This document shows positions 3,251 to 24,886 of a DNA stretch of 37,980 nt, piece by piece. Both the position numbers and the translations under genes were made by a program. Source of the DNA: Tannerellaceae bacterium (lineage in GTDB: Bacteria > Bacteroidota > Bacteroidia > Bacteroidales > Tannerellaceae); contig JAITGS010000081.1 of NCBI GenBank assembly GCA_031280435.1, positions 1 to 37,980 on the forward strand, read 5' to 3'. Numbering within the stretch: the first letter of the stretch is position 1; every line of letters begins with the position of its first letter. Below the pieces are notes generated by a model. The model saw nothing but the letters and a program-made list of their open reading frames with translations, searched no databases and had not been told where the DNA came from.

Positions 3251-4579
3251 ATGAAGACTAATTGCTTTGTGGCTTTTGCCGCGTTTATTATCCTTTCTTT
3301 TCAAGCGGGCCTTGCGCAGGACTGGCCTCAGTATCTGGGGCCGAGCCGCGACAGCAAATCTCCGCAGAAGTCTCTGCTGAGGAGCTGGCCGGACAAGGGC
3401 CCTGATGTTTTATGGTCGGTCGGTACCGGCATAGGATACGGCGGCCCGGTGGTGAAAGCCGGCCGCGTTTATCTGCTCGACAGGGATGATGAGGCGGGCG
3501 ATGTGATGCGTTGCTTCAGCCTGCAAACTGGCGAGGAGCTCTGGCGGTTTGCTTACGAGGCTCCGGGGACGCTGCCCTTTCCGGGTTCGCGCAGCGTGCC
3601 TGTCGTAGACGACAGCCATGTTTATTCCTGCGGCCCTAACGGCGATTTGTATTGCATTGACCTCAAAACTCACCAGCCGGTCTGGAAACGGAATGTGTGG
3701 ACGGACTACGGCGGCGGGAAGCTGCCTACGTGGGGAATATCGCAGTGCCCGTTTATTTACGGCGAGCTGCTGCTTGTATCTTCTCAGGCTCCGCAGGCGG
3801 GGGTTGTGGCATACGATAAGAACACGGGCGAGGAGGTCTGGAAGACGGCCAACCTTGGCGGCGAGGCTTATGTCAGCCCCAAGGTGCTGAAGATTCACGG
3901 GCAGGATCATGTGGTGATTGTGACATCGTCTGCAAATAATTTCAGGAACTCGGGCGCGCCGGCTGTGAAGGGCAATGTGCTGGGGCTGGATCCGCGAACG
4001 GGCCGGACGCTGTGGATATATGCAGGATGGGAATGCCACATCTCGGTGCCCTGTCCGGTGGATGCGGGCGATAACAGGCTGCTGATTGCGGGGGGATACG
4101 AGCGCGGCGCTACTATGATTAGGGTGGACAAGAAGGCCGACGGCTCGTTTGACACCTCGGAACTTTTCACAACGACGGACTTCGGCGATCAAACCAAAAC
4201 GCCTCTTTTCCACAACGGATACTTTTATGCCATGTACCGCACTAACCAAAAACGAGACGGCATGGTGTGCATGGATACCAGCGGGAAAATAATGTGGAAG
4301 ACCGGGCGCAATCCAAACTTCGACCGCGGCAGCATGATACTGGCCGACGGCTTGCTGCTGGCCACCGACGGCCTTACGAGCCTGTACCTCATCGACCCCT
4401 CGCCCGAAGCTTTCCGGCAAATCTCCAAAGCGGATGTGCTGGCCGAAGGCGGCGTCAACACGGAGGGCATGACGAGCGCGGGAGGCAACACACAGAACTG
4501 GGCCCCCGTTGCGCTGGCCGACGGCAAGCTGCTCGTCCGGGATCAGTCGAAAATGGTGTGCGTAAAGGTGGCGCAATAA
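3251..4579 (+). CDS. Secreted PQQ-like beta-propeller protein (propeller 1)
   Basis: A 442-residue protein with a signal peptide (MKTNCFVAFAAFIILSFQAG, cleavage likely after GLAQ) followed by DWPQYLGPSRD, a mature N-terminus common in PQQ-like propeller proteins. Blade motifs with a closing Trp recur: GEELWRF, QPVWKRN, GEEVWKT, GRTLWIY, KIMWKTG. This fits a seven- or eight-bladed quinoprotein-like fold covering nearly the whole chain. I see no vicinal Cys pair or other clear feature of PQQ alcohol dehydrogenases, so the fold does not imply PQQ binding. It is the first gene after the promoter at 3167, and the AraC gene follows after 9 bases. It resembles the propellers at 5478 and 6705, suggesting duplication. 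Function unknown, probably a binding or scaffold protein in the periplasm. Confidence 0.88.
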   Translation: MKTNCFVAFAAFIILSFQAGLAQDWPQYLGPSRDSKSPQKSLLRSWPDKGPDVLWSVGTGIGYGGPVVKAGRVYLLDRDDEAGDVMRCFSLQTGEELWRFAYEAPGTLPFPGSRSVPVVDDSHVYSCGPNGDLYCIDLKTHQPVWKRNVWTDYGGGKLPTWGISQCPFIYGELLLVSSQAPQAGVVAYDKNTGEEVWKTANLGGEAYVSPKVLKIHGQDHVVIVTSSANNFRNSGAPAVKGNVLGLDPRTGRTLWIYAGWECHISVPCPVDAGDNRLLIAGGYERGATMIRVDKKADGSFDTSELFTTTDFGDQTKTPLFHNGYFYAMYRTNQKRDGMVCMDTSGKIMWKTGRNPNFDRGSMILADGLLLATDGLTSLYLIDPSPEAFRQISKADVLAEGGVNTEGMTSAGGNTQNWAPVALADGKLLVRDQSKMVCVKVAQ

Positions 4580-4588
4580 TTAAGACGG

Positions 4589-5398
4589 ATGGACGATACG
4601 AAAATCATCAACTATTCCAACGTATTCCTGTCTTGCTTTAGCGACGGCGGCACGAAACATGCCCGCATGGCCAAGGAGCACTACCTCTCCTACGTTTATG
4701 CCGGCGAGATGCAGCTGGAGGAGCGCGGGCGCCGGGTGAGGCTCTGCAAGGGCGAGTGCGCTTTCATCTGTAAGGACAACAGGATTCAGATATCTAAAAT
4801 GCCTGCCGGCGGCGAGCAGTTCAAATCCATAACGCTCTCCTTTCCGCGCGTCTTCCTGCGCGAATTTTATGATGCTATGGACAAGAGCCTGCTGCCTGCC
4901 GACGCCAGGCATCCGCAGTCGAGCGTCAACAAGCTCGTTATAGGGCCGGATATAATCAGCCTCTTCGAGTCGATGACGCCCTACTTCGATTCGCCGGTGG
5001 AGCCCACGCCGGAACTGATTCGGCTCAAGATGTACGAAGGCGTATACTGTATCCTCAATGCCGACATAAACTTTTGCACCGTCCTGTTCGACTTCTCCGA
5101 GCCCTGGCGAATCGACATCCTCGACTATCTGAACGAGAACTACATGTACGATCTTTCGGTGGGCGAGATAGCCAACTTCACCGGCCGCAGCCTGGCTACC
5201 TTCAAGCGCGACTTCAGGAAGGTCAGCAGCCTTCCTCCGCAGAAATGGATCATGCGCAAGCGGCTTCAGGAAGCGCACGACAGACTGTGCAGCGGCAACA
5301 GGAAGGTATCCGACGTGTGCTACGAGGTAGGCTTCAAGAGCCTCTCCCACTTCTCGCGGCTTTATAAGGAAACATTCGGCGATGCTCCTTCAAAATAA
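4589..5398 (+). CDS. AraC-family transcriptional regulator
   Basis: A 269-residue cytoplasmic protein. The N-terminal part (about 1-160) looks like a cupin-type sensor (YAGEMQLEERGRRVRLCKGE). Residues about 170-266 are a typical AraC double helix-turn-helix: DLSVGEIANFTGRSLATFKRDF, then VSDVCYEVGFKSLSHFSRLYKETFG. It sits between two propeller genes in the same direction, so it is the obvious candidate regulator of this gene run, possibly autoregulatory. The effector is unknown. The 79-base gap after it could hold a promoter for the following genes, but I saw no clear TAnnTTTG there. Confidence 0.93.
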   Translation: MDDTKIINYSNVFLSCFSDGGTKHARMAKEHYLSYVYAGEMQLEERGRRVRLCKGECAFICKDNRIQISKMPAGGEQFKSITLSFPRVFLREFYDAMDKSLLPADARHPQSSVNKLVIGPDIISLFESMTPYFDSPVEPTPELIRLKMYEGVYCILNADINFCTVLFDFSEPWRIDILDYLNENYMYDLSVGEIANFTGRSLATFKRDFRKVSSLPPQKWIMRKRLQEAHDRLCSGNRKVSDVCYEVGFKSLSHFSRLYKETFGDAPSK

Positions 5399-5477: not shown

Positions 5478-6701
5478 ATGAAAAAGCTAATCTTATCATT
5501 GATTGCATTGCTTGCGATGCTTCCGTTTGCGCGGCATGCGGAAGCGCAGAACACAGTACAGTGGCGCTACGACCGCACGGGGATTTACAAGGAGACCGGA
5601 CTGCTGAAGTCGTGGGCCGACGCCGGGCCCAAGATGCTCTGGCATTACGACGGGCTGGGCGAAGGACATTCGTCTGTTGCCGTATCCGCATCGGGCAAGA
5701 TGTACATCACGGGCATGACCGAAGGAAAAGGATACGTGTATGAACTCGATGCCTCCGGCAAGCTGCTCCGCCGTAAGGAGTACGGCCCCGAATGGGACAA
5801 GAGCTACAACGGCACACGAGGCACCATCACCCCGGACAACGGCAAGCTCTATCTTGTGACGGGCTACGGCGATGTGGTTTGCATGAACGAATCCGACCTC
5901 GGCATAGTATGGAAGAAAAGCCTGCTGAACGATTTCGGGGGCTCAAACATCACCTGGGGAATATGCGAATCGCCGCTCATAGCCGGCGACAAGCTCATAG
6001 CATCGCCCGGAGGAAAGCAGCACAACATCATTGCACTAAACAAGAACACAGGCGAACTGATATGGAGCTGCCCGGGCGACGGAGAGCTCTCGGCCTACTG
6101 CTCGCCCATACTCGTTGCCGACCGGCAAGTCCCGCAGATAGTCACAATGATGCAAAAGCATATAGTAGGCGTGGAGCTGGCAACAGGCAAGAAGCTATGG
6201 TCGTATGAGCATATCAACCAGCATGGAGTTCATCCAAACGTTCCGCTTTATGCCGACAACATGCTGCTCTGCACAAGCGGCTACGGCAAAGGCTCCGTGA
6301 TGCTCCGCCTGACCAACGGCGGCCGCGGCGTGGAGAAAGCATGGGAATCGAACCTGCCCGACTCTCGCATAGGAGCCATGGTGAAAATCGGTAACTATGC
6401 CTACGGCTCGGGCGACAAAAATCGCTTCTGGTTTTGCATCGACTGGCAAACGGGCGAGGTGAAGTACAAAGACAACGCCATAGGCATAGGCAATATCATC
6501 TCGGCCGACGGCATGCTCTACTGCTACTCCGAGAAAGGCGAGCTGGCACTTGTGAACATCAATCCCGACAAGTTCGACATCGTCGGCAAGAGTTCCGTTA
6601 CGCTCGGAACCGATCAGCACTGGGCACATCCCGTCATACACAAGGGAACGCTCTATCTGCGCCACGGAAACACGCTGATGGCGTATAACATCAAGAACTG
6701 A
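5478..6701 (+). CDS. Secreted PQQ-like beta-propeller protein (propeller 2)
   Basis: A 407-residue protein. I choose the ATG at 5478 because MKKLILSLIALLAMLPFARHAEAQ is a complete signal peptide, whereas the upstream in-frame ATG at 5382 lies within the AraC gene. The mature protein starts NTVQWRYDRTGIYKE and carries propeller blade motifs (LGIVWKKS, GELIWSCPG, GKKLWSYEH). ITWGICESPLIAGDKL aligns with PTWGISQCPFIYGELL of propeller 1, showing common ancestry. The next gene starts 3 bases after its stop, so the two are probably co-translated. A periplasmic location is inferred; no PQQ ligands or heme motif were seen. Confidence 0.87.
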   Translation: MKKLILSLIALLAMLPFARHAEAQNTVQWRYDRTGIYKETGLLKSWADAGPKMLWHYDGLGEGHSSVAVSASGKMYITGMTEGKGYVYELDASGKLLRRKEYGPEWDKSYNGTRGTITPDNGKLYLVTGYGDVVCMNESDLGIVWKKSLLNDFGGSNITWGICESPLIAGDKLIASPGGKQHNIIALNKNTGELIWSCPGDGELSAYCSPILVADRQVPQIVTMMQKHIVGVELATGKKLWSYEHINQHGVHPNVPLYADNMLLCTSGYGKGSVMLRLTNGGRGVEKAWESNLPDSRIGAMVKIGNYAYGSGDKNRFWFCIDWQTGEVKYKDNAIGIGNIISADGMLYCYSEKGELALVNINPDKFDIVGKSSVTLGTDQHWAHPVIHKGTLYLRHGNTLMAYNIKN

Positions 6702-6704
6702 TTC

Positions 6705-8120
6705 ATGAACCGGAGGATTACAGCCGTTACTGTTGCCACGGTCGTCGCCTACCTCGGCATCATCGTTATATGGCATGTATATTCTCCGGACAGGAATATA
6801 GAGCTGCAAAATCCCGGGGCGGACGAGCGTCCGCCCGAAACGGCTCGCAAGGCAAACGACGTGCGCATAGGCGAATTTTTCATGCGATACGAAGAAACAG
6901 CCTCCGGCCTCACCGGGCAATGGCCGCGCTTCCGCGGCGCAGCAGCATCGAACATACTGCAAACCTCCGCACCACTGTCCTTGCCGCAGGAAGACTATCC
7001 CGAACTTTGGGAAGTAAGCACAGGCGAAGGACATGCCGCTACCGTAATCCATAAGGGCTTCGTATACTTCCTCGACTACGACGAGAGCCTAAGCTCCGAC
7101 ATGCTGCGCTGCTTCTCGCTCGAGACCGGGCGGGAGCAGTGGCGCCGATGGTATCGCGTGCCGATGAAGCGCAATCACGGCTTCTCGCGCACGGTGCCCG
7201 TAGTGTCCGACGGATATATAATAACGATAGGCCCGCAGGCTCATCTGATGTGCTGCGACCCCGTGTCGGGCGATCTCCGGTGGGCCAAAGACATGCAGGC
7301 GGAGTACCGCACGGAAGTGCCCCCCTGGTATGCCGGACAGTGTCCGCACGTCGACAAGGACGTGCTGGTCGTAGCCCCGGCCGGCGAGGAGGTTCTGATG
7401 GCCGGAATAGATTGCCGCACGGGCGAGACGCTATGGCAAACGCCCAATACGCCCGGCTTCAAGATGTCGCACTCATCGGTTATGCAGATGACATTGCACG
7501 GCAAGTCCACCTACGTTTATATAGGCTTAGGCGGAGTGTGCGGAGTGTCGGCCGAGGAGGCCGACAGAGGAACCCTGCTCTGGAGCACGTCCAAGTGGCA
7601 GCCATCGGTTGTATCTCCTTCGCCGCTGCAACTATCGGCCGGCAGCATCTTCTTGGTTGCAGGCTACGGTTCGGGAGGAGCTCTGCTGACGCTCGACAGG
7701 CAAGGCTCCAAGTGGACGCCTACGATAGTGGAGCAATACAAAGCCAACGAAGGACTGTCGAGCGAGCAGCAGACCCCCATCCTGTACAACAACATGATCA
7801 TCACCGTCATCCCCAAAGACGGCGGCAGCATGCGAGGCAAGCTGGTAGCCTATCCTCCGTCGGATTTGCACAATCCTATATGGTCGTCGGCAGCCGACGA
7901 GCGATTCGGGCTGGGCCCATACTTTATACTGAACAATCACCTCTTCGTCTTTAAGGACGACGGCGAGCTGTACGTTTACGAAATAGGTTCGCGCAGCTTG
8001 CAGCTCCGTAAGAAGCAGCGCATCATGGACGGCGTAGACGCATGGGGCTCCATGGCCTACGCCGACGGCCGGCTTATCGTTCGCGATGCGCATCACATCA
8101 AATGCCTGCGGATAAACTGA
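6705..8120 (+). CDS. Membrane-anchored PQQ-like beta-propeller protein (propeller 3)
   Basis: A 471-residue protein with an uncleaved-looking N-terminal membrane segment (about residues 5-24, ITAVTVATVVAYLGIIVIW), then a linker and a propeller domain from about residue 68 (QWPRFRGAAASN). Blade motifs include REQWRRWY, GDLRWAKD, GETLWQT and GTLLWSTS. The section VPPWYAGQCPHVDKDVLVV corresponds to the conserved WGxxxCP region of propellers 1 and 2. It starts 3 bases after propeller 2 and is followed by the NHL-like protein after 26 bases. Anchoring on the periplasmic face of the inner membrane is likely. Catalytic function cannot be assigned. Confidence 0.85.
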   Translation: MNRRITAVTVATVVAYLGIIVIWHVYSPDRNIELQNPGADERPPETARKANDVRIGEFFMRYEETASGLTGQWPRFRGAAASNILQTSAPLSLPQEDYPELWEVSTGEGHAATVIHKGFVYFLDYDESLSSDMLRCFSLETGREQWRRWYRVPMKRNHGFSRTVPVVSDGYIITIGPQAHLMCCDPVSGDLRWAKDMQAEYRTEVPPWYAGQCPHVDKDVLVVAPAGEEVLMAGIDCRTGETLWQTPNTPGFKMSHSSVMQMTLHGKSTYVYIGLGGVCGVSAEEADRGTLLWSTSKWQPSVVSPSPLQLSAGSIFLVAGYGSGGALLTLDRQGSKWTPTIVEQYKANEGLSSEQQTPILYNNMIITVIPKDGGSMRGKLVAYPPSDLHNPIWSSAADERFGLGPYFILNNHLFVFKDDGELYVYEIGSRSLQLRKKQRIMDGVDAWGSMAYADGRLIVRDAHHIKCLRIN

Positions 8121-8146: not shown

Positions 8147-9052
8147 ATGTCGAACCGCCTGCGCTTATTCCTTAATCTTCTTGTCCTGGCCCTTGTGGCA
8201 GGCTTCGTAGCCTATATGATAGTGTCGGTGGGCAGCTCCGAGACGGAGTACGGCGAGGCGCCGGCCGAGCAGGAAGCCTTTGTCGGTCCGTGCAGCGTAG
8301 AGGCCTCCTTTGCCGTGCCGCAAGGGGCGAGGCATATCAAGCTGGCCGGCGACACCCTCTTCCTGGCATCATCCGACTCGGTGTTCCTTTACGGAACCGA
8401 CGGCAGACGGCTCGGAAGCTTCGGCGCGCCGGAGGGCATTGCCGATATAGCCGTAGGCGGAGGCCTCATCTACCTGCTTTATCCGGCACGCATAACGGTG
8501 CTTGATGCCTCCGGGAATTTTGTCCGCGAGTGGGAGGCATGCAGCGATCGCTCGCTCTACATCTCCATAGCTTTGACAAGCCGATATGCTTTCGTAACCG
8601 ATGCCGAGAACAAGAACATCTGCCAGTATACGCTCGAAGGCGGCTTCGTTCGCTTCATCAGCAGTCCGCGCGGCTTCGTAGTTCCTATGCCGTCCTTCGC
8701 CGTCGAAAGCTATCGCGACACCGTTTACTGCGCTAATCCCGGACGGCATACGGTGGAGAGCTACTCCGAGGACGGAGCCTTCCTTGCCTCGTTCGGGATT
8801 CCGGGAAGCAAGCCGGGAGCCTTTTCGGGATGCAGCAATCCGGCCTTCATAGCCTTCACCGACAGCGGGCTGCTGCTCGCCTCCGAGAAAGGCAATCCGC
8901 GCGTATGCCTCTTTGAGCGAAGCGGACGCTTCGACCGCATGATGCTCAACGCCGGCATGCTCGGCGGAGGGCATGAGGCATACGAAATACAGTCCGCCGG
9001 CAACACAATCTATGTAGCCGGACGGGCTCAAATCATCGCTTACAAATTCTAA
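8147..9052 (+). CDS. Membrane-anchored NHL-like beta-propeller protein (propeller 4)
   Basis: A 301-residue protein with an N-terminal membrane anchor (about residues 5-28, LRLFLNLLVLALVAGFVAYM) and a domain of NHL/six-bladed propeller type with recurring units such as LYGTDGRRLGSFGAPEGIADIAV and SYSEDGAFLASFGIPGS. It is clearly paralogous to the next gene: ENKNICQYT and GRHTVESYSEDG here match NNNICQYT and GRHQVEIYSLKG there. It lacks the double-Cys CGCC and the C-terminal Cys cluster of that paralogue. Probably a periplasm-facing binding module; partner unknown. Confidence 0.8.
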   Translation: MSNRLRLFLNLLVLALVAGFVAYMIVSVGSSETEYGEAPAEQEAFVGPCSVEASFAVPQGARHIKLAGDTLFLASSDSVFLYGTDGRRLGSFGAPEGIADIAVGGGLIYLLYPARITVLDASGNFVREWEACSDRSLYISIALTSRYAFVTDAENKNICQYTLEGGFVRFISSPRGFVVPMPSFAVESYRDTVYCANPGRHTVESYSEDGAFLASFGIPGSKPGAFSGCSNPAFIAFTDSGLLLASEKGNPRVCLFERSGRFDRMMLNAGMLGGGHEAYEIQSAGNTIYVAGRAQIIAYKF

Positions 9053-9070: not shown

Positions 9071-10069
9071 ATGGGAAACATATCTCGGAAAAAATTTTTC
9101 AGAACCGTGGGAACCATAGTGGCCGGAGGAGCAATAACCGGCGTATCCGCAGTTGTTGCGAGCAAGAGCCTGAACAAAGACGGCCCGGCTGCGGCATCCG
9201 GCGAGCGGCCCGAAGCCGACGCCTTTGTGTCGCCCTACAAGCCTACGGTTGTATTCACAGCCCAGGGAGGCATTGATGCCTTTGAACATCACGACGGCCG
9301 GCTCTATGTGGCCGGCGCAGGCCTGCTCACGGTAATGGACGACTACGGCAAGACGCTTTCGCGCTTAGCCATTGCCCCGGAATCCGTCCGCGACATTGCC
9401 GTTGATGCCGAGGGCATATACCTGCTGCGGCAGGCCTCCATAGCCGTTTATTCGCATGAGGGAAGGCCCTTGAGGGAGTGGGAGGCTTGCAGCAGCCTCT
9501 CCGATTACTGCTCGTTCGCTCTTGCCGAAGACTTTGTGTTCGTGACCGATCGCGACAACAACAACATCTGCCAATACACTCGCGGCGGCGATTTCGTCCG
9601 CTTCATAGACAGCCCCAACCGCTTCATCATCCCCAGCCCCACATTCGGCATCACCTACGCCAACGGCAAGCTCTATTGCTCCAATTCCGGACGGCATCAG
9701 GTCGAAATATATTCGCTCAAGGGAGAATACCTCGGCAAGTTCGGCGCAGCAGGAAGCGGACAGGGATATTTCTGCGGATGCTGCAACCCCGTTTATCTTG
9801 CCGCCACTCCCACGGGCGAGATTATCACCTCCGAAAAAGGCATACCGCGCATAAGCTGCTATGCAGCCGACGGAAGCTTCCGCTCCATGCTGCTCGACGG
9901 CAAGATGCAGGGCGAAGGCGGCACGGCGGCCGACAGGGTGAAGATAGCCGGCGCCAAGCTCTTTACGGCCGGCGCCGACCGGGTGAGGGTTTACGAGTAC
10001 GATCCGCAGCTTGCATCATCCGGCGCCTGTTCGGGCTGCGGAGTTGATTGCCGCCTAAGGAATGCATAA
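9071..10069 (+). CDS. Exported NHL-like beta-propeller with C-terminal Cys cluster (propeller 5)
   Basis: A 332-residue paralogue of the preceding gene. The N-terminus MGNISRKKFFRTVGTIVAGG resembles a Tat signal, but the twin arginine is RK, a conservative variant. The propeller region is followed by a C-terminal tail with CSGCGVDC (CxxCxxxC spacing), and FCGCCNP occurs near residue 238. These cysteines are absent from or reduced in the paralogue and could bind a metal or Fe-S cluster or form disulfides. It abuts a secreted ferredoxin gene bearing the same RK-type signal, so the two may be exported together (inference). Fold placement is good; the metal-binding idea is tentative. Confidence 0.8.
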   Translation: MGNISRKKFFRTVGTIVAGGAITGVSAVVASKSLNKDGPAAASGERPEADAFVSPYKPTVVFTAQGGIDAFEHHDGRLYVAGAGLLTVMDDYGKTLSRLAIAPESVRDIAVDAEGIYLLRQASIAVYSHEGRPLREWEACSSLSDYCSFALAEDFVFVTDRDNNNICQYTRGGDFVRFIDSPNRFIIPSPTFGITYANGKLYCSNSGRHQVEIYSLKGEYLGKFGAAGSGQGYFCGCCNPVYLAATPTGEIITSEKGIPRISCYAADGSFRSMLLDGKMQGEGGTAADRVKIAGAKLFTAGADRVRVYEYDPQLASSGACSGCGVDCRLRNA

Positions 10070-10085: not shown

Positions 10086-10637
10086 ATGAGCGACCCCATA
10101 TCGCGCAAGCGCTTCCTGCGCCTCTGCGGCTCCATAACGGCAGGAGCGGCCGTAGCGGGCATATCCGGCCTGGCCCTCTCGAAGATTGGCAAGGAAGGCG
10201 GAACTTTCTGGCAGATAGATCCGGCCAAATGCACCTTCTGCGGACGCTGCGAAACCGACTGCGTCCTGGCAGTATCGGCCGTGAAATGCGTTCACGCCAA
10301 CCGCGTCTGCGGATACTGCGACCTATGCGGCGGATATTATCGCTCGAACGTGAAAGACCTCAACACTGCCGCCGAGAACCTGATGTGCCCCACCGGAGCC
10401 ATACAGCGCAAGTTCGTGGAGGATCCCTACTTTGAGTACAGCATAGACGAGAGCCTCTGCAACGGATGCGGCAAGTGCGCCAAGGGATGCAACTCCTTCG
10501 GCAACGGATCGCTTTATCTCCAGGTCAACCAAGAAATTTGCGAGGATTGCAACGAGTGCAAAATCTCAAGGGTATGCCCTTCGGGGGCAATACAGCGCGT
10601 CGCTGCCTCAAAGGCATATATTTTGAAGGACGGATGA
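10086..10637 (+). CDS. Exported four-cluster ferredoxin (NapG-like)
   Basis: A 183-residue protein from the ATG at 10086; an in-frame ATG at 10062 overlaps the previous stop and would add eight residues. I favour 10086 because it leaves a short, typical signal n-region, ISRKRFLRLCG, again RK rather than RR. Cys motifs follow: CTFCGRCETDC (from residue 49), CGYCDLC with a later CPTGA, CNGCGKCAKGC, and CEDCNECKISRVCPSGA. This is enough for about four [4Fe-4S] clusters, as in NapG and related electron-transfer subunits. It is separated by repeat array R2 from a NapH/NosR-like membrane polyferredoxin, the classical partner of such proteins. It probably relays electrons at the outer face of the inner membrane. 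Confidence 0.87.
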   Translation: MSDPISRKRFLRLCGSITAGAAVAGISGLALSKIGKEGGTFWQIDPAKCTFCGRCETDCVLAVSAVKCVHANRVCGYCDLCGGYYRSNVKDLNTAAENLMCPTGAIQRKFVEDPYFEYSIDESLCNGCGKCAKGCNSFGNGSLYLQVNQEICEDCNECKISRVCPSGAIQRVAASKAYILKDG

Positions 10638-11125
10638 AGGGCGAAGGGCTCAAAGTATTTCCCGCAAGCCGCTGCGACGCCGCAAAGGCCGGGATATTGC
10701 CGTCGGAAGCCTGCGCGAAATCGCATTTCGGCAAACCGAGCTTCCGCAAGGAAATGCGACATCGCATTTGGGCAAACCGAGCTTCCGCAAGGAAATGCGA
10801 CATCGCATTTGGGCAAACCGAGCTTCCGCAAGGAAATGCGACGTCGCATTTCGGCAAACCGAGCTTCCGCAAGGAAATACGACATCGCATTTGGGCAAAC
10901 CGAGCTTCCGCAAGGAAATGCGACATCGCATTTCGGCAAACCGAGCTTCCGCAAGGAAATGCGACGTCGCATTTCGGCAAAGGGAGCTTCCGCAAGGAAA
11001 TGCGACGTCGCATTTCGGCAAACCGAGCTTCCGCAAGGAAATGCGACGTCGCATTCCGGCAAACCGAGCTTCCGCAAGGAAATGCGACGTCGGAAGCCTT
11101 TGAGCCGGAAAAAATCAGGGTATAA
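10634..11125 (+). other. Open reading frame through repeat array R2, coding status doubtful
   Basis: An ATG at 10634 overlaps the ferredoxin stop as ATGA and opens a 163-codon frame to 11125 through the whole array. It would encode a 41-residue repeat (for example SHFGKPSFRKEMRHRIWANR at its start) because 41 bp read three times covers all frames. All six frames are open over most of the array, so openness alone is not evidence for a gene. The junction type matches those of real genes here, which is why it is recorded. Confidence 0.2.
10720..11099. repeat. Palindromic tandem array R2, nine 41-bp units
   Basis: GCAAACCGAG starts at 10731, 10772, 10813, 10854, 10895, 10936, (variant GCAAAGGGAG at 10977), 11018 and 11059, exactly 41 bp apart. 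Each unit joins a GCTTCCGCAAG segment to a palindromic core whose best form is the perfect 20-mer GAAATGCGACGTCGCATTTC; some copies have ATC instead of GTC at the centre. The 12-mer CGTCGGAAGCCT flanks the array at 10701-10712 and 11088-11099. The array interrupts the gene run between the ferredoxin and the membrane polyferredoxin. Confidence 0.95.
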
Positions 11126-17568: not shown

Positions 17569-19166
17569 GAAATAATAAGAGAGGCGGTAAGGTGATAATG
17601 TCAAATTGTCCTTTTAAACATTTTTTGGCGCTGCAACGTCTATACATCCCCTTCCGTATGGCTTTTTCGGCACCTCCGGAACAGTTGGGGAGGCTCCAAA
17701 TTTTTTTTCCGGCGCCTCCGGAACAGTTTGTAGGCCCCAAATTTTTTCTACGGCGCCTCCGGAGCAGTCGGAAAAGCTCCAAATTTTTTTTCCGGCGCCT
17801 CCGGAACAGATTGGAGGCCCCCGATTTTTTTTCCGGCGCCTCCGGAACAGTCTGGAGGCCCCAAATTTTTTTTCCGGCGCCTCCGGAACAGTCTGGAGGC
17901 CCCAAATTTTTTCTACGGCGCCTCCGGAACAGTCTGGAGGCCCCAAATTTTTTCTACGGCGCCTCCGGAACAGTCGGAAAAGCTCCGTTTTTTTTCTCCG
18001 GCGCCTCCCCAATAGCCTTTATACCCTTAATATTAGCTCTGCTGATAGCTTTGCTGACCGGATGCGGCCGGGGGCGCGCAGGTGAACCTGCGGGTGGAGG
18101 AGCGGACAGCTGGCCGCTTTTCAGGGGCGATGCCGGCCTCAGCGGATACTCGGATGCGCGGCTGCCCGACAAGCCTGCCTTGCTGTGGGCGTACAAGAGC
18201 GGCGCCCGGACGGTATCATCACCGGTGATATACAAGCGGACGGCCTACTTTAGCGACAGGCGCGGACGCATCTACGGCATAGATGCCGAGGGCAAGCAGA
18301 GCTTCGACTACGACTTCGCCACGGCCGTGGAGGCCACTCCCATGATCAGCGATTCCGTCCTGTACATAGGCCGCATCGACGGATTCATGACGGCGCTGTC
18401 ATTATCCGGCGAGCTGCTCTGGAGCTTCGAGACCATGGGGCAGATATCCGCTTCGCCTAATATAGGAGTGTTCCGCGGACAGGAAGCCGTGGTTTTCGGC
18501 AGCTACGACAACTACCTCTATTGCCTGAACAAAAGCAGCGGCGAGGAGATCAGCCGCTTCGAGTCGGGATACTACATCAATGGAGCCGTAGCCGTGCAGG
18601 GCTCCGGCTTCTTTTCCGGCGGCTGCGACGCCTGGCTCCGTATACTCAACGGCGAGACGGGCCGCGTGTCCGATTCGCTTATGCTCGATACCTACATCCC
18701 GGCCTCGCCGGCTATATCCGGCCGCGACTGCTACATAGCCGACCATTCGGGCAATGTGTATGCCCTCACGGTAGAAGCCGGACGGATTAGCAGCCATCGC
18801 AAGGTTGTGGAGGCCACAAGCGAGAGCGCCTCCTTCGTATCCGTCCCCGCCCTGTCTTCATCCGCAGTATATATAATCGGCGACGACAGGTATCTGTATG
18901 CACTCGACAGGAAGACGGGCGAGCAGCTCTGGAGATACCTTCAGAAAGGAAGTTCGGGCGAGAGCTCTCCGCTGGTCTGCCGCGACAGGATTATCTGCTG
19001 CACCAAATCGGGAGTGATCTCTATCGTAGACGCCCGCAGCGGCTCTCTGCTCTGGGAATATGATACGGGCGAGCAGATCGTGGCCTCGCCGGCCGTGATC
19101 CGCGATCGCTTTTACATCCTTACGGCCAAGGGCACCTTGTTTTGCTTCGGCAATCAATCCGACTAA
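17565..19166 (+). CDS. PQQ-like beta-propeller lipoprotein (propeller 7) with repeat array inside its 5' end
   Basis: The frame starts with an ATG overlapping the previous stop (ATGA) and runs 533 codons. Residues about 35-149 are encoded by repeat array R3, read in three alternating frames (PAPPEQ, RRLRN, GASGTV). Only afterwards does a lipoprotein signal appear (IAFIPLILALLIALLTGC, Cys167), followed by a BamB-like propeller from about residue 180 (SWPLFRGDAGLSG; blades GELLWSFE, GEQLWRYL, GSLLWEYD). No ATG, GTG or TTG gives a normal signal peptide after the array. Either a roughly 150-residue leader is translated, a non-standard start is used, or the array has damaged export. The original gene probably joined MRNN... 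directly to the hydrophobic segment. Propeller call confident; expression uncertain. Confidence 0.8.
   Translation: MRNNKRGGKVIMSNCPFKHFLALQRLYIPFRMAFSAPPEQLGRLQIFFPAPPEQFVGPKFFLRRLRSSRKSSKFFFRRLRNRLEAPDFFSGASGTVWRPQIFFPAPPEQSGGPKFFLRRLRNSLEAPNFFYGASGTVGKAPFFFSGASPIAFIPLILALLIALLTGCGRGRAGEPAGGGADSWPLFRGDAGLSGYSDARLPDKPALLWAYKSGARTVSSPVIYKRTAYFSDRRGRIYGIDAEGKQSFDYDFATAVEATPMISDSVLYIGRIDGFMTALSLSGELLWSFETMGQISASPNIGVFRGQEAVVFGSYDNYLYCLNKSSGEEISRFESGYYINGAVAVQGSGFFSGGCDAWLRILNGETGRVSDSLMLDTYIPASPAISGRDCYIADHSGNVYALTVEAGRISSHRKVVEATSESASFVSVPALSSSAVYIIGDDRYLYALDRKTGEQLWRYLQKGSSGESSPLVCRDRIICCTKSGVISIVDARSGSLLWEYDTGEQIVASPAVIRDRFYILTAKGTLFCFGNQSD
17667..18012. repeat. Palindromic tandem array R3, nine 41-42-bp units
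   Basis: CCTCC cores start at 17673, 17715, 17756, 17798, 17839, 17880, 17921, 17962 and 18004, spaced 41 or 42 bp. In the best copies GCCTCC pairs with GGAGGC across a 10-base loop and is followed, after CCCAAA, by six to eight T residues, so each unit resembles an intrinsic terminator in the direction of the gene run. Unit length changes with the T-run. Individual units carry substitutions in the second stem arm. The array lies within the 5' part of propeller 7. Confidence 0.95.
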
Positions 19167-19192: not shown

Positions 19193-19861
19193 ATGATCAG
19201 ATTAACAGGAATCACTAAAACATATCCCGACGGGAACAACAGCCTAAGGCAGGTTCTGCGCGGACTAAGCCTCAGCCTTGCCCGCGGAGAGTTCCTCGCC
19301 GTTATGGGCGCATCGGGCTCGGGCAAGACAACGCTGCTGTCCATACTCGGAGCTCTGATTGCCCCCGACGGAGGCGAATACCTGCTCGAGGGCCAATCCG
19401 TTTTCGACGGCCGCAGGACCGACCTTGCCGACCTGCGCAACCGGCGCATAGGCTTCGTGTTCCAGGAGCACAGGCTCATGCCGCAGCTGTGCCTGCGCGA
19501 CAACATACTGCTGCCCGTCCTGGCCGCACAGTCCAAGGCCACCGCAGAGCAGGCGGAGTACGCACAGCTATTGATGGAGCTAAGCGGCATAGCGCCGCTG
19601 GCCCGCCAATATCCCCGGCAGGTATCCGGAGGCGAAGCCGGACGCACGGCCCTCTGCCGGGCCTTAATCATGAAGCCGGCCCTGCTGCTGGCCGACGAGC
19701 CTACCGGTAGGCTCGACAGCCGGACGGCGTGCAATATCATGGAGCTGCTGCAACGGATAAACCGCGAGCTCGGAACCACCGTCGTCATGGTCAGCCATTC
19801 GGCCGACACCGCCTCGGCTGCCCAAAGGATACTAACTCTCGCAAACGGATTGCTGTCGTGA
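19193..19861 (+). CDS. ABC transporter ATP-binding protein (MacB/LolD type)
   Basis: A 222-residue cytoplasmic ATPase; the ATG at 19193 is chosen because MIRLTGITKTYPDG is the usual first strand. Walker A is GASGSGKTT (residues 39-47), the Q-loop region FVFQEHRLMPQL, the signature VSGGEAGR, Walker B ALLLADEPTG, and the H-loop MVSHSAD. The usual Q of LSGGQ is replaced by E. It overlaps the permease gene (GTGA), as expected for a two-gene MacB/FtsX-type transporter. Such transporters commonly handle lipoproteins, peptides or envelope stress rather than nutrients. Being 26 bases after the propeller 7 lipoprotein gene, it may act on that protein (inference). Confidence 0.95.
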   Translation: MIRLTGITKTYPDGNNSLRQVLRGLSLSLARGEFLAVMGASGSGKTTLLSILGALIAPDGGEYLLEGQSVFDGRRTDLADLRNRRIGFVFQEHRLMPQLCLRDNILLPVLAAQSKATAEQAEYAQLLMELSGIAPLARQYPRQVSGGEAGRTALCRALIMKPALLLADEPTGRLDSRTACNIMELLQRINRELGTTVVMVSHSADTASAAQRILTLANGLLS

Positions 19862-22821
19862 ACTTCAGCCTGCTTGTACGCGCCAACGCCGGGCGCTATC
19901 GCCGCTATTACCGCCTCATCGCAGCGGCATCCCTCATCGTTACGGCCCTTGTGTCGGGCAGCCTTATGACGGGCGACTCGGTTCGGCATACGCTGACGGA
20001 ACGGCTTAGCCGGCGGCTCGGAAATACGGAGACGCTCATCTTCTCCTCCAATTCCTTCTTCAGCGAAAGTCTGGCGGCCGAACCGGCTTTGGGAGGCAGC
20101 GCCCGTCCGGTACTGCTCAGCCAAGGCTTTATATCGCACGAAGGCCGTCTCATTCCCGTCATGGTATGGGGAACGGACGAGCCCGACATTCCGGCCGGAG
20201 CGGCAATGATTAACAGGCAGCTTGCCGGACAGCTTGCGGAGTCGGCGCCCTCCGACATAGTCCTCCGGCTGCCGGCTGCGGGGCTTGTGCCCTCCGGATC
20301 GCTCTTCGTGACCGATAATTATACAACATCGCTGCGACTTGCCCTTGCCGGAATACTGGAGGCGGCAAGCGGAGGCGATATCAGCCTCAAAAACGAGCAG
20401 ATAATACCCTGCAACATCTTCCTCCGTCGCGCCGAGCTGGCCTCGGCCATGGAAATAGAGGGGAAGGCAAACCTGATCCTGTCCGACAGCATAATCACAG
20501 CCGAGGCATTGGCGGCAGCCTGGCGGCCCGCTACCTCAGGCATCAGCCTACTACGGCTCGACGGCTCAACCGAGATCGGCTCCGACAGAGTCTTCCTGCA
20601 AACGGAGCTAGTAGACGCCATCGCTCGCGACAATCCCGGCGCCAATCGCCTGTTCTCCTACATGGCCAACTCCATCGAATCCGCGAGCGGAAGCCTGCCC
20701 TACTCCTTCGTTACGGCCATAGACGCTTACGCAGGCCTGGAGCCGGCCGACAACGAGATCGTCCTCTCCGATTATGCCGCCGCACGGCTCAAGGCAGGCC
20801 CGAACGACAGCATCAGCCTGACCTACTTCGTATCCTCCGACCTGAAAACCTTGCGCGAAGAGAGCATCAGCCTGCGGGTGGCAGGAATCCTGCCGCTTGA
20901 GCAACTGTCGGCCGACAAGACACTCAGCGCCGACTTCCCCGGACTGTCCGACGTGGAGAGATGCACCGACTGGGACAGCGACATGCCTATCAACATGGAT
21001 CGCATCACCAAAGAAGACGAGGACTACTGGACACTCTATCGCTCCACGCCCAAAGCTCTGGTGGCCTACCGCACTCTCGCACCGCGATGGAGCAATGCCT
21101 ACGGCTCGGCCACTGCCGTCCGAACCGCCGACGCCCCCGATCTCGGCGGGCTCAATCCCGCCATGCTCGGCCTGCGGATAGTTTATCCCAGGGCGATCGG
21201 GCTGGAGGCAGCCCGTGGCGGCATCGACTTTGCGTCGCTGTTCCTGTCGCTCGGCTTCCTCATAATTTTCTCGGCCGTGCTGTTGATGTTGCTGCCCTTG
21301 AGCGAGATGATTTTTGAGCGCCGAAGCGAGTTGGCTCTGCTGCGTGCCTTAGGCTTCGGCCCCGGGCGCATAGTGAAGCTGCTGCATCGCGAATCGCTGG
21401 CCGTCGTACTGCTTGCATCGCCTCTGGGAGTGCTGGCCGGGGCATGCTATACGGCGCTATCGCTCGCGCTGCTCAATACGCTGTGGAACGACGCCGTGCA
21501 TACCTCCGGATTCGCCTTTTTCCCAAGCCTCACAACAATATTTGCCGGATGGATAGCCGGCGCCGTCATAAGCCTGCTTACGCTGCTGCTGTCCGTATGG
21601 CGTGCGGCAGGCAGAGCAGAGAGACCCCTCGCCCTTAAGCCGCTGAAGCCGGCTCGGCTCGGAAGCTTCGACCGGCGGCGGCTCGTATGGGCCGGACTGC
21701 GCATGGACGGCAAGCGCGGCCTCACTTCATTCGTTGCATTAGCCTCAGGCGTGCTCATCGTCTTCTCCGTAGGGCTCAACAGGAGAGGCTTTGCCGACAG
21801 CTCTCAGCTTAGGAGCGGCACCGGAGGTTACTCGCTCTGGTGCGAAACAGGCGTCCCTGTCTACCACAGCATGAGCTCCGCCGAAGGACGCGCCAAGCTT
21901 GCGCTCACCGATCTTCCTCCCGGCGTCGAGGCCCTTCAGATACTAAGGTATGGAGCCGACGACGCCAGCTGCCTTAACCTGAACAAGGTGGTGCGGCCCA
22001 CCGTGCTCGGCGTCGACATGGAAAGATTGCAGGGCAGCGACTTCAGAATCCTCGGCAGCATATATAATAAGGAGGAGAATCCCTTCGACGCCCTCCGACT
22101 GGCCTCCGGCGATGTGTATCCGGCGGCGATAGACGAGACGACGCTGCTGTGGGGATTGCAGCGACGGCTCGGAGATACGCTGAGCTACGAAGCAGCCGAC
22201 GGTAGGCCCGTCCGAATCCTCTTGGCCGCCACATTGCCCAACACCATCTTCCAGGGAAACCTGCTGATGGACGGCAAGCACTTCGCAGCCGTATGGCCGG
22301 AGATTCGCGGCAGCGAGATCGCCCTCATACGCTCCGACGCATCCGTAGAGCCGCAGGTGAGGCAACTGCTGTCGCAGGCGCTGAGCGAGTACGGCCTGCG
22401 CCTCATGACTACCTCCGGGCGCTTGCGGGAGTTCAACTCCGTTACCGATACCTACCTGACGATCTTCCTGACGCTGGGAGGGCTCGGACTGCTGCTCGGG
22501 CTCGCCGCCTTCATCATCATCGTCCGTAAGAGCCTTGCCGCCCGCGGCGGGCAGATTGAGCTATACCGTGCGCTCGGATTCGCCGACAGCCGTATAGCAT
22601 CACTGCTGATTGCGGAGAACCGCCTGATACCCCTGGCCGCCATAATCTGCGGAGCCGGCCTCTCGCTGGCCGGTGTAAGCGGCAGCGCGGCGAATGTCGG
22701 TACTGGAGTATGGCTGACGGCCATACTGCTGATGGCGGCGCTCATGCTTGGAGCCTTAGGCTTCGTCAGGCGCGCGGTCGACAGGAAAATAAGAAACTCA
22801 AGCTATCAATTTAAATCATGA
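19858..22821 (+). CDS. Large FtsX-family ABC transporter permease
   Basis: A 987-residue membrane protein starting at GTG 19858, which overlaps the ATPase stop as GTGA; VNFSLLVRANAGRYRRYYRLI then leads into the first membrane helix. Two FtsX-like core regions are seen: one around residues 455-600 with EMIFERRSELALLRALGFGPGRI and several helices, the other at the C-terminus with GQIELYRALGFADSRI and following helices. Large extracytoplasmic domains lie before each. The length and duplicated FtsX core match the single-chain permeases sometimes paired with one LolD-like ATPase. The glycosyltransferase gene overlaps its stop (ATGA). Substrate unknown. Confidence 0.9.
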   Translation: MNFSLLVRANAGRYRRYYRLIAAASLIVTALVSGSLMTGDSVRHTLTERLSRRLGNTETLIFSSNSFFSESLAAEPALGGSARPVLLSQGFISHEGRLIPVMVWGTDEPDIPAGAAMINRQLAGQLAESAPSDIVLRLPAAGLVPSGSLFVTDNYTTSLRLALAGILEAASGGDISLKNEQIIPCNIFLRRAELASAMEIEGKANLILSDSIITAEALAAAWRPATSGISLLRLDGSTEIGSDRVFLQTELVDAIARDNPGANRLFSYMANSIESASGSLPYSFVTAIDAYAGLEPADNEIVLSDYAAARLKAGPNDSISLTYFVSSDLKTLREESISLRVAGILPLEQLSADKTLSADFPGLSDVERCTDWDSDMPINMDRITKEDEDYWTLYRSTPKALVAYRTLAPRWSNAYGSATAVRTADAPDLGGLNPAMLGLRIVYPRAIGLEAARGGIDFASLFLSLGFLIIFSAVLLMLLPLSEMIFERRSELALLRALGFGPGRIVKLLHRESLAVVLLASPLGVLAGACYTALSLALLNTLWNDAVHTSGFAFFPSLTTIFAGWIAGAVISLLTLLLSVWRAAGRAERPLALKPLKPARLGSFDRRRLVWAGLRMDGKRGLTSFVALASGVLIVFSVGLNRRGFADSSQLRSGTGGYSLWCETGVPVYHSMSSAEGRAKLALTDLPPGVEALQILRYGADDASCLNLNKVVRPTVLGVDMERLQGSDFRILGSIYNKEENPFDALRLASGDVYPAAIDETTLLWGLQRRLGDTLSYEAADGRPVRILLAATLPNTIFQGNLLMDGKHFAAVWPEIRGSEIALIRSDASVEPQVRQLLSQALSEYGLRLMTTSGRLREFNSVTDTYLTIFLTLGGLGLLLGLAAFIIIVRKSLAARGGQIELYRALGFADSRIASLLIAENRLIPLAAIICGAGLSLAGVSGSAANVGTGVWLTAILLMAALMLGALGFVRRAVDRKIRNSSYQFKS

Positions 22822-24095
22822 AGATCCTTTTTATTGTTCCGGGTTCGGGCGATGCATTCTACTGCGGCAACTGTTTCCGTGATAACCTCCATGCTTCGTC
22901 GTTGCGCAAAGCCGGACACGAGGTGGTGGTGATGCCCCTGTATCTGCCTCTCGACCCCGATTCGTTCCGGGCCGACGCTCCGCTCTTCTTCCCGGCCATT
23001 TCGCTTTATGTCTCACAGAAATATTACAGCCGAAAAGCCATGCCGGGCTGGATGGAGAAGATACTTAACTCTAAGCGATCGCTCAGTATGGCCGCATCCT
23101 TTTCGGGCAGCACATCTTCCCGCGGCTTAGAGGACATGACGCTGGCTATGATTAACGGCCGCGGTTCGGTCTTCGCACGGCATGCATCCGCCATGGTCGA
23201 CTGGATTCGGCAGCAGGAGCAGCCCGATGTTGTTCACCTCTCAAGCAGTCTTGTTATAGGCATAGCGAGGATGCTCAAAACCGAAATGGATGTACCAATA
23301 GTCTGCTCGCTCCAGGACGAAGAGATATGGATTAACCCCCTCGGCATCCATGCAGCCTCAGCCTGGCAAGGCATAGAGGACAACCTCGGCTACATAGACG
23401 CCTTCGTAGCCTCCAGCGAGTTCTACAAGGCCGAGTCGCTCAAGCGCTTCCCCGGTATAGCCGATCGCACCGAGGTTGTCTATCCCGGGCTTGCCCCGGA
23501 GCTATATTCGTCCGACAGCTACCCTGCCGACCCTACCCTGGGCTTCTTCTATCGCATGAGCGAGTCCGACGGGCTGCATATACTCGCCGAGGCCTTTGTC
23601 AAGGTCAAACGCACGGGCCGCATACCGCAGCTCCGGCTGCGCATAGGCGGAGGATTTTCGGGAGCCGACAAGAGCTTCCTGCGCCGCCTGCGCACAATCC
23701 TCCGGCCCTACCGCAGCGATGTAACCTGGCTCGAAACATACAGCCTTGCCGAGCATGCAGCTTTCTACCGCCAAACCTCAGCCGTTTGCGTGCCCATCAC
23801 CTTCAGCGAGGCCGTAGGGCTTTACGTTTGCGAATCATTTGCCGCCGGGAGGCCAGTCATAGAGCCGGCAAGCGGCTCATTCCCCGAAATAGTAGGCGGC
23901 GGAGGAATCCTGTACGAGAGCAACGACAGCGACTGCCTCGCCCGGGCCATCCTGAGCCTCTTCACCGACAGGGCGCTCTGGGAGAAATGCCGGGACGAGG
24001 CCGTAAGGCTCGGACGCAGCCGCTACTCCGACGCGGTGCAGGCACAGCGCCTCGGAGGCATCTACGGAAAAATTTTAAAGCAAGCTAAGCAATGA
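22818..24095 (+). CDS. GT4-like glycosyltransferase
   Basis: A 425-residue GT-B fold protein. The start MKILFIVPGSGDAFYCGNCFRDNLHA is typical of family 4-like transferases with a YCGNC motif near the N-terminus. The C-terminal half has PQLRLRIGGG and the retaining EX7E motif (E331 and E339, in FSEAVGLYVCESF), then AAGRPVIEPASGSFPEIV, which usually contacts the nucleotide-sugar donor. No signal peptide; probably cytoplasmic or membrane-associated. It overlaps both neighbours by ATGA. Its place inside the propeller/ABC run suggests a linked envelope or glycan role, but donor and acceptor cannot be read from sequence. Confidence 0.88.
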   Translation: MKILFIVPGSGDAFYCGNCFRDNLHASSLRKAGHEVVVMPLYLPLDPDSFRADAPLFFPAISLYVSQKYYSRKAMPGWMEKILNSKRSLSMAASFSGSTSSRGLEDMTLAMINGRGSVFARHASAMVDWIRQQEQPDVVHLSSSLVIGIARMLKTEMDVPIVCSLQDEEIWINPLGIHAASAWQGIEDNLGYIDAFVASSEFYKAESLKRFPGIADRTEVVYPGLAPELYSSDSYPADPTLGFFYRMSESDGLHILAEAFVKVKRTGRIPQLRLRIGGGFSGADKSFLRRLRTILRPYRSDVTWLETYSLAEHAAFYRQTSAVCVPITFSEAVGLYVCESFAAGRPVIEPASGSFPEIVGGGGILYESNDSDCLARAILSLFTDRALWEKCRDEAVRLGRSRYSDAVQAQRLGGIYGKILKQAKQ

Positions 24096-24886
24096 GCAGG
24101 CGCGAATTTACGGGCGAGATGCTCGGCACCTTCATCCTTACCTTCTTCGGATGCGGTTCGGTGGCCGTGGCCACATTGTTCGGCGAATACAGCGGGATTT
24201 TCCAGATAGGCTTAGTGTGGGGCGTTGCCGTAACGCTGGCCATCTACCTCACGCGCCACCTCTCCAATGCCCACCTTAATCCGGCCGTTACCCTGGCCAT
24301 GGTTGCGGCCGGGCGGATGCGGGGAGATAAGATTGGCCTGTACCTGGCCGCACAGTTCCTCGGCGCCTTTGCCGCAGGCTGGGCATTGCTTGCGCTTTTT
24401 TCGCCCTCCATAGAGATGTTCGAGAGTTCGCGCGGGATAATACGCGGAGAGGCCTCATCGGTTGTCACAGCCAAGATCTTCGGCGAGTTTTATCCCTCGC
24501 CCGGCAGCGGCGCCGTAGTCGGCATGCCGCTGGCCATGGCGGCCGAGTTCGTTGGCGCCTTCCTTCTGGTTTTAGCTATTATGGGCCTCACCGACGGCGC
24601 CAACGCAGGCCGTCCGAGCAGCTCCATAGCTCCGCTCTTCATAGGCCTCACGGTTTCGTCCGTCATCTGGCTGATAGCGCCCCTGACGCAGGCCGGCATC
24701 AATCCGGCACGCGATTTGGGCCCCCGGTTGGTTGCCGCCATGGCAGGCTGGGGCAGCGCCGCCTTCCCCGACGATTGCGGAGGCTTCCTGTGGGTGTACA
24801 TACTCGCCCCGGCGGCCGGCGGAATAGCCGCAGCCCTGCTCGAGCCTCTGATGAAAAAGGTAAACCGTCTAAGCTCTGAGGATTGA
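24092..24886 (+). CDS. MIP-family channel, GlpF-like aquaglyceroporin
   Basis: A 264-residue membrane protein with six predicted helices and both NPA half-helices: HLNPAVT near residue 68 and GINPARD near residue 209. Asp after the second NPAR is characteristic of glycerol facilitators as opposed to water-only aquaporins. The start overlaps the glycosyltransferase stop (ATGA), making this the last gene of the run before a repeat-filled gap. No glycerol kinase or dehydrogenase is nearby, so the physiological solute is uncertain. Confidence 0.92.
   Translation: MSRREFTGEMLGTFILTFFGCGSVAVATLFGEYSGIFQIGLVWGVAVTLAIYLTRHLSNAHLNPAVTLAMVAAGRMRGDKIGLYLAAQFLGAFAAGWALLALFSPSIEMFESSRGIIRGEASSVVTAKIFGEFYPSPGSGAVVGMPLAMAAEFVGAFLLVLAIMGLTDGANAGRPSSSIAPLFIGLTVSSVIWLIAPLTQAGINPARDLGPRLVAAMAGWGSAAFPDDCGGFLWVYILAPAAGGIAAALLEPLMKKVNRLSSED

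Follow-up and report, generated by a model that had tools for sequence, protein, structure and literature searches.

What do electrons do in a gene cluster that encodes an NADH/Fe-S electron-transfer module among beta-propellers, with no conventional terminal enzyme beside them? The question is raised by positions 3251 to 24886 of contig JAITGS010000081.1 from a Tannerellaceae bacterium (GCA_031280435.1), of which the whole analysed stretch of 37,980 nucleotides (positions 1 to 37,980, forward strand) is called the window here. Our analysis revealed that the cluster is a conserved system and not a chance neighbourhood, and that its flavoprotein, judged by domains and cofactor ligands, joins in one protein BfuC and BfuB, which form the core of electron-bifurcating enzymes of the Bfu (HydABC) family. 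We see an even chance that its genes together specify a single electron-transfer machine that spans the membrane of anaerobic Bacteroidales and in which this Bfu-type enzyme would exchange electrons with propellers of the envelope.

In this part of the source genome (3.06 Mb, 83% complete), 16 co-directional genes were counted, one more than the 15 of a first-pass annotation made from the sequence. Together with a repeat array, they are arranged as follows:

3251..4579, plus strand: PQQ1, exported BamB/PQQ-like propeller (Pfam PQQ_2, E 1e-20)
4589..5398, plus strand: AraC-family regulator (ExsA_N and HTH_18)
5478..6701, plus strand: PQQ2, exported PQQ-like propeller (Pfam)
6705..8120, plus strand: PQQ3, N-terminally anchored propeller (Pfam, alignment, model)
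8147..9052, plus strand: NHL1, anchored NHL-like propeller (DUF4934 under cut-off, homologues)
9071..10069, plus strand: NHL2, NHL-like propeller with a Tat-like leader (alignment, model)
10086..10637, plus strand: Fdx, exported ferredoxin with a Tat-like leader (Pfam, alignment)
10715..11092, plus strand: 41-base tandem array in the gap between Fdx and NapH (repeat scan)
11150..12418, plus strand: NapH-like membrane polyferredoxin (Pfam, NCBIfam, alignment)
12415..14193, plus strand: PQQ4, N-terminal membrane domain and propeller (Pfam)
14190..16595, plus strand: NuoEF, putative BfuC-BfuB fusion (Pfam, alignment, tree)
16579..17568, plus strand: NuoG-like protein, apparently a stripped Bfu A-subunit (Pfam, alignment)
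17565..19166, plus strand: PQQ5, lipoprotein-type propeller (Pfam; 5' part of the frame largely repeat array)
19193..19861, plus strand: ABC ATPase, MacB/LolD type by position and partner (Pfam)
19858..22821, plus strand: FtsX-type permease (Pfam)
22818..24095, plus strand: glycosyltransferase (GT), group 1 (Pfam)
24092..24886, plus strand: MIP, aquaporin/glycerol-facilitator family (Pfam)

With the chosen gene starts, neighbouring genes lie 3–26 bases apart or overlap by 4–17 bases at 13 of 15 junctions, so that the tight packing described before was mostly borne out; the two wider gaps are those upstream of PQQ2 (79 bases) and of NapH (512 bases, holding the array). Domains were called with Pfam for all genes and with NCBIfam in addition for Fdx, NapH, PQQ4, NuoEF, and NuoG. 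These matches agree with the first-pass description of a NuoE-NuoF fusion, a NuoG/GltD-type adaptor, a NapH-like polyferredoxin, and an exported Fe-S protein, and Pfam also recovered its AraC regulator, ABC and FtsX proteins, glycosyltransferase, and channel, the latter belonging to the MIP family. It had also stated that no hydrogenase, molybdoenzyme, or CxxCH cytochrome is present to end the chain, which holds for the 16 genes, as their Pfam matches included no hydrogenase or molybdopterin domain and a motif scan counted zero CxxCH. Formate dehydrogenase, or any other known module for a third Bfu substrate, was likewise not among the Pfam matches.

Linkage of the propeller and Fe-S genes in relatives had been set as the refutation test of a common system, and it held across most of 80 loci and most of 23 further loci from other families, with the NuoEF fusion present in 15 of 15 genomes that have NapH. 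Scanning genome contigs with a PQQ4 alignment yielded 532 relatives; the 80 with the best matches were examined. The order PQQ2-PQQ3-NHL-Fdx-NapH-PQQ4-NuoEF-NuoG-PQQ5, usually followed by ABC, FtsX, and GT, was kept in most of these 80 named loci and in most of the 23 from other families. As locus L070 had no PQQ4 call, genes were counted in 79 loci, each against those with enough flank on the respective side. For the redox genes this resulted in NapH 73/77, NuoEF 68/72, Fdx 58/73, and NuoG 50/65, for the propellers in NHL 60/72, PQQ3 55/64, PQQ2 47/62, and PQQ5 50/63, and for the envelope genes in FtsX 43/54, ABC 42/60, and GT 20/51. All of these are lower bounds, since the open reading frame caller at times placed an opposite-strand frame at Fdx or ABC and some loci are rearranged. 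The 23 loci of other families, several of them short or rearranged, harbored NuoEF (22), PQQ4 (22), NapH (21), NuoG (20), Fdx (19), PQQ5 (18), PQQ3 (17), GT (15), PQQ2 (14), ABC (13), and FtsX (12). Among 60 relatives, NapH (E ≤1e-40) was detected in 15, all of which also carried the NuoEF fusion; the two genes share a contig in 14 cases, no more than about 5 kb apart, and sit on separate contigs in genome G051. Fisher values of 3e-13 and 3e-6 (counts in relatives) and of 2.9e-9 (393-genome counts) overstate the certainty, as they ignore the kinship of the genomes; in the counts behind the first two, G055 was taken as a fusion genome despite separate genes, and G022, with a partial NuoEF match, was left out. 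All parts of the cluster come from broad families, as they might if separate envelope and redox genes lay side by side by chance, but the arrangement is kept across distant families and the constant pairing of NapH with the fusion contradicts such an ordinary neighbourhood, which we consider very improbable. Recurrence of the arrangement in different families of the order puts the linkage far outside what chance would produce.

Of 393 genomes of the order, 69 had a PQQ4 match, or 67 once the propeller-only matches G562 and G590 were dropped, and the one match in a 395-genome sample of the phylum was the window's own genome. Record titles of the best 80 of the 532 relatives name Bacteroidota from gut, rumen, termite, and marine sources, with one exception titled Eubacteriales (L053). 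The cluster genes of the latter match the others and its terpenoid genes (see below) are 95–98% like those of G027, so that a binning or naming error is the probable cause. The closest named relative among those listed is the Tannerellaceae metagenome-assembled genome (MAG) Pc512_bin80, with a PQQ4 89% identical, and G002, of the same genus as the window, carries most of the full cluster, split across two contigs. Judged by record titles, several Parabacteroides strains, Mangrovibacterium marinum, and Carboxylicivirga linearis are cultured carriers, which makes the system experimentally testable.

Pfam detected in NuoEF the BfuC/BfuB domain set, namely a thioredoxin-like 2Fe-2S domain, the NuoF FMN domain, NADH_4Fe-4S, and a C-terminal 4Fe-4S domain, with SLBB below its curated cut-off (20 vs. 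27 bits); we take these families to correspond to the InterPro entries of the Bfu set. FMN and six Fe-S clusters are predicted as cofactors, and the best solved relative was a chain named NfnB (703 bits), with HydB-type and related subunits at 560–661 bits and NuoF at no more than 347 bits. Cysteines of B3 and B4 occur in 88 of 88 aligned NuoEF sequences, and all those of clusters B1, B3, B4, B5, and C1 in 87–88, following a motif-based assignment that in part we presume. Five BfuB clusters and one BfuC cluster define the Bfu family (PMC9304861, Schut et al. 2022), the mechanism of which that paper describes as fully reversible. Its B2 cluster is described there as unusual in having three Cys, one Cys/Thr, and one His, the latter being absent from HydB homologues that do not bifurcate. 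Sites corresponding to B2 were assigned by comparison with the residue numbers given in that paper, which differ from ours by an almost constant offset; thus placed, the putative ligands His718, Cys631, Cys723, and Cys728 are invariant in 88/88 sequences, and position 669 is Cys in 56, Thr in 19, and Ser in 7 (82/88). With the full ligand set of a bifurcating Bfu enzyme, the flavoprotein probably uses ferredoxin besides NADH, and its electron flow may be reversible. The NADH module proposed before thus stands, and its reading as a plain NADH oxidiser is widened accordingly.

In a tree of 47 rows, the 25 sampled propeller-linked fusions grouped together with support 100/100, and 22 other BfuB/NuoF proteins from the order fell outside this clade. 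The core enzyme is of a known kind, and the BfuB clade to which it belongs is one of Bacteroidales whose constant set of partners points outside the cell membrane, where delivery of low-potential electrons is unusual. The 2022 survey left 17 BfuB clades without assigned function (PMC9304861). Compared with the Bfu and Nfn-Bfu enzymes in the part of that survey used here, the core Fe-S ligands, the FMN domain, the C-terminal two-cluster domain, and the thioredoxin-like [2Fe-2S] domains are the same, whereas here BfuC and BfuB are fused, the BfuA of the window has no FAD, NADP, or other catalytic domain, and the partners are NapH, an exported ferredoxin, and propellers, none of which is among the partners named there. 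No second full NuoF/HydB was found among the matches listed for the window's genome, the next NuoEF match being weak. At locus L031 (G007), a separate FeFe-hydrogenase-type Bfu locus was seen, so that two Bfu systems coexist in that genome.

The NuoG-like protein (329 residues) is composed of Fer2 (Fer2_4), a DPYD-type Fe-S domain, and a C-terminal Fe-S part, without FAD, NADP, or catalytic domain. Conserved in 67 sequences (numbered from 16573) are Cys 35/46/49/63, His95, and Cys 99/103/107, which we take to be the ligands of the BfuA clusters A1 and A2. From the neighbouring BfuB clade, one of five members (L032, genome G055) was looked at for its A-subunit, which has 1230 residues with Fer2, DPYD-type Fe-S, FAD/NADP, and molybdopterin domains. 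A propeller-linked A-subunit from a distant family (L030, 517 residues) aligns to residues 5–290 and 450–693 of this form; it has neither the intervening segment nor the molybdopterin part and retains FAD-type Rossmann matches. The window's protein in turn aligns to both Fe-S ends of the 517-residue form, with the FAD part missing. It hence looks like a Bfu A-subunit stripped of its molybdopterin, NADP, and FAD domains, and the series suggests that the old third-substrate domains would have been lost stepwise, in this order. A catalytic NuoG was ruled out, the protein being an adaptor without catalytic domain whose alignment to the longer A-subunit covers the N-terminal and central Fe-S parts of the latter. 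Of the NuoG/GltD-type adaptor named before, the Fe-S adaptor was retained, and its origin is better sought in a reduced Bfu A-subunit than simply in NuoG. Since this subunit has no FAD, NADP, or molybdopterin domain, electrons must leave via another protein, the candidates being NapH, the exported ferredoxin, and the propellers.

The NapH-like protein, assigned as multi-spanning from transmembrane helices judged by eye, harbors two CX3CP motifs (C139/143, C227/231), two four-Cys ferredoxin motifs (C254–264, C403–413), and further invariant cysteines (C95, C97, C191), all of them in at least 99% of 87 aligned sequences. In Fdx, 17 Cys are kept in at least 96% of 80 sequences, giving room for four [4Fe-4S] clusters, and its leader, like that of NHL2, reads as Tat-like. 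The pair resembles the NapGH, MauMN, and NosR relays in the CX3CP and two ferredoxin motifs of the membrane protein and in the adjoining exported multi-cluster ferredoxin. It differs in scoring far below the curated models, namely NapH/MauN (TIGR02163; 59.4 bits, cut-off 213), NapG/MauM for Fdx (23.7 bits, cut-off 178.85), and NosR, which was matched only in part (residues 435–647 of 680; 55 bits vs. 1000) and never over its whole length. Furthermore, no FMN-binding domain was among the Pfam matches, and no NosZ, MauAB, or NapA was seen in this cluster. NosR and MauMN also serve beta-propeller enzymes, and NapH in NapGH is thought to be a quinone reductase or quinol oxidase. The third partner could thus be the menaquinone pool, with NapH in the same role, the Bfu core feeding or draining it, and the propellers being structural or regulatory. 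The family resemblance of NapH (59 bits to TIGR02163) fits this explanation, but Fdx, which together with NuoEF is the best conserved of the set (median identity 69% in the 80 loci and 56% in distant loci), would suit a periplasmic electron target better than a quinone, and we regard a menaquinone partner as unlikely.

Seven propellers had been described before, of which the five PQQ-like ones are established by Pfam PQQ_2 matches above cut-off. The two NHL-like ones are weak by sequence (NHL2: Pfam NHL E 0.006; NHL1: no NHL match, DUF4934 E 0.007; both under cut-off), NHL2 being supported by its model, which forms a propeller and has NHL domains as its best solved matches. It also has an invariant Cys-Cys pair (237/238); a C-terminal CxxCxxxC motif is found in 78% of 69 sequences. 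PQQ3 is the best conserved propeller, with the most invariant columns among those compared and many invariant polar residues. Its model (predicted local distance difference test, pLDDT, 84.6) came closest to BamB, followed by tetrathionate hydrolase and PQQ dehydrogenases. The propeller fold of this model and Pfam PQQ_2 are shared with BamB, PQQ-dependent alcohol dehydrogenases, and tetrathionate hydrolase; the differences lie in the low identity of PQQ3 (10–18% across 50 listed fold matches) and in PQQ4, the one propeller run against the curated models, which fell under those for PQQ enzymes (TIGR03075, 43.8 vs. 480) and BamB. As the fold search of PQQ3 and NHL2 returned only generic propeller neighbours, no active site is named. 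PQQ4 has three apparent N-terminal transmembrane helices (by eye) in front of its propeller, and no credible Pfam family was found for this membrane domain even at a lax threshold. In relatives, PQQ2 occurs in one to four copies (labels by best match). PQQ1 was the best match of a gene in 7 of the 79 loci, with more than 60% identity only in L035 and L042, and a 57% homologue in G538 adjoins a histidine kinase-LytTR pair and the terpenoid operon described below.

PQQ-like propellers recall periplasmic dehydrogenases, and with the fully reversible Bfu mechanism (PMC9304861) one may imagine the reverse flow, in which a propeller oxidises an envelope substrate whose electrons are then bifurcated to NAD+ and ferredoxin. 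The score of PQQ4 far under the PQQ dehydrogenase model speaks against this, as does the need for a PQQ donor, so that we consider it improbable. The gene pqqC was found in 0 of 60 relatives, the same family being also at 0 of 14 in control genomes. By its potential, a PQQ donor is too positive to reduce NAD+.

For the machine with outward flow, we infer the following complex, topology, and route. The fused Bfu core would exchange electrons with NADH and ferredoxin in the cytoplasm, and the stripped A-subunit would hand them to the Fe-S domains of NapH, which would carry them across the membrane to Fdx. The latter would then serve the periplasmic propellers, PQQ3 and NHL2 first, followed by PQQ4, PQQ2, and the lipoprotein PQQ5. 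Electron flow to the propellers, as proposed in the first-pass annotation, thus stays a proposal. With no catalytic domain in the A-subunit and a relay via NapH and Fdx to propellers, the third substrate would lie in the envelope. As to direction, NADH and reduced ferredoxin would enter and electrons of mid-to-low potential leave, serving an electron sink or an envelope reductase; we prefer this direction since electrons from NADH and ferredoxin can be combined by Bfu enzymes at an intermediate potential, and since fermenters need sinks. ABC/FtsX and GT would probably build or load the envelope part of the machine. Several points weigh against such a machine. The A-subunit series consists of one neighbour-clade protein (L032) and one distant-family protein (L030), and with NapH and Fdx so far below the curated NapH and NapG cut-offs, their orientation and role would rest on analogy. 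No cofactor or active site was identified in a propeller, PQQ3 resembling BamB, tetrathionate hydrolase, and PQQ dehydrogenases alike; the propellers could be scaffold only, and NapH might contact menaquinone instead. A bolder version would be a categorically new envelope respiration, in which bifurcation would push low-potential electrons from the cytoplasm to a complex of propellers, where a substrate outside the cytoplasm would be reduced; in many lineages, a new terpenoid, cyclised and acting as lipid carrier or substrate, would wire the propellers. We think of this version as rather doubtful.

This terpenoid is suggested by a five-gene block that lies upstream of PQQ2 in many relatives and encodes a ferredoxin-like protein, a radical SAM protein, a DUF116-prenyl synthase fusion, a 290-residue toroid protein, and a squalene-hopene-type cyclase. 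Its motifs are kept, namely DXDD of the cyclase (16 aligned), two DDxxD of the synthase (10 aligned), and CxxxCxxC of the radical SAM protein (6 aligned). The cyclase adjoins the core in 37 of the 55 loci with enough flank and in 0 of the 12 of those most similar to the window (64–89% PQQ4 identity). It was detected in 15 of 393 genomes of the order, 13 of them with the core (exceptions G590 and G592), and 54 of 67 core genomes revealed no cyclase match. The 60 relatives included 10 cyclase matches, two of them weak or partial (G005 over 49 residues, G022 with 33% over part); nine occurred with NapH, the tenth being G022 with its partial NuoEF. In distant families, the block adjoins the core in G681, lies on contigs other than that of PQQ4 and without core neighbours in G691, G622, and G527, and in G538 adjoins PQQ1 and a histidine kinase-LytTR pair. 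No cyclase was found in the window's genome, which at 83% completeness does not prove its absence, and the radical SAM protein and the synthase gave only weak and generic hits there. An obligatory terpenoid partner was thus ruled out by the many core genomes without cyclase. Rather than belonging to the core, the operon accompanies it in some lineages only, where it would supply a lipid as substrate, anchor, or carrier; not being visible in the window, it has to be added to the earlier description of the module. It shares with squalene-hopene cyclase pathways the SHC-type families with DXDD and a radical SAM protein distantly like HpnH, and differs in the low score of its cyclase (76 bits vs. 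a hopene cyclase cut-off of 431), in the fusion of DUF116 to the prenyl synthase, and in being absent from the window.

The same genes could mean that the module is biosynthetic, its low-potential electrons serving the synthesis or maturation of a lipid or cofactor of the envelope, with the precursor coming from the terpenoid operon. Cyclase, prenyl synthase, radical SAM, and toroid protein adjoining the core in many relatives, the 13 of 15 cyclase genomes with the core, and the GT and exporter-type ABC/FtsX within the cluster would all agree with this. As the cyclase is missing among the matches of 54 of 67 core genomes and of the window's genome, however, a terpenoid is unlikely to be the general product, and we have little confidence in a biosynthetic role.

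No published description of this system turned up in searches of the open-licence PMC literature, as judged from titles and abstract openings. This, together with the linkage, supports the earlier view of a linked and undescribed NADH/Fe-S/propeller module without a conventional terminal enzyme; as far as this literature was searched, it is the envelope wiring and the terpenoid partner that are undescribed. Since Bacteroidales of gut, rumen, and marine origin carry the cluster, it may serve them to get rid of electrons from fermentation by a route not recognised so far, and the co-travelling terpenoid operon suggests an undescribed lipid.

Regulators and accessory genes vary more. AraC was found in 1 of the 79 loci and a histidine kinase-LytTR pair instead in 4. 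By lineage, AraC occurs in the window and its sister L035 and the pair in others (L021, L040, L048, L055, L056, L120, and L192 compared). MIP is present in 5 of 79 loci. Downstream of the cluster, the window continues with a TonB receptor and two further genes:

25294..26385, plus strand: CobW-type GTPase, possible accessory (Pfam)
26410..27288, plus strand: exported MBL-fold protein (Pfam)

A CobW homologue was detected in 1 of 79 loci, and a 29% homologue adjoins the core in G681. An MBL-fold homologue (40–46% identical), a candidate orthologue, lies between NuoEF and NuoG in 8 of 79 loci.

The reading frame of PQQ5 starts about 150 residues before the lipoprotein signal (region 17565–18070). 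Some 114 of these residues come from translation of a 41-base repeat array (17668–18008), which continues in frame into the gene with no ATG between array and signal. A short normal leader was seen in four of five sister loci looked at. As the pre-signal part is largely repeat array, the true start is uncertain. Five tandem arrays with a period of 41 bases (one of 42) were found in the window, at 2843–2958, 10715–11092, 17668–18008, 25002–25137, and 29797–29991, with differing unit sequences and mostly intergenic. Arrays with periods of 41–43 also occur in L013, L016, L035, L043, L046, L047, L070, and L118, some of which represent the same contig twice. Rfam and tRNA scans gave no match, promoter-like sites were not commoner than in shuffled sequence (7 vs. 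8.5), and terminator-like sites (26 vs. 16.3 in shuffles, standard deviation 4.9) were not used as evidence. Upstream, a protein with a 3-keto-disaccharide hydrolase domain and a sugar-isomerase-type TIM barrel protein are encoded divergently at 231–2651 and were not seen in the conserved core. On the minus strand, positions 30378–37205 hold a reading frame of 2275 residues with FG-GAP matches, probably a surface protein.

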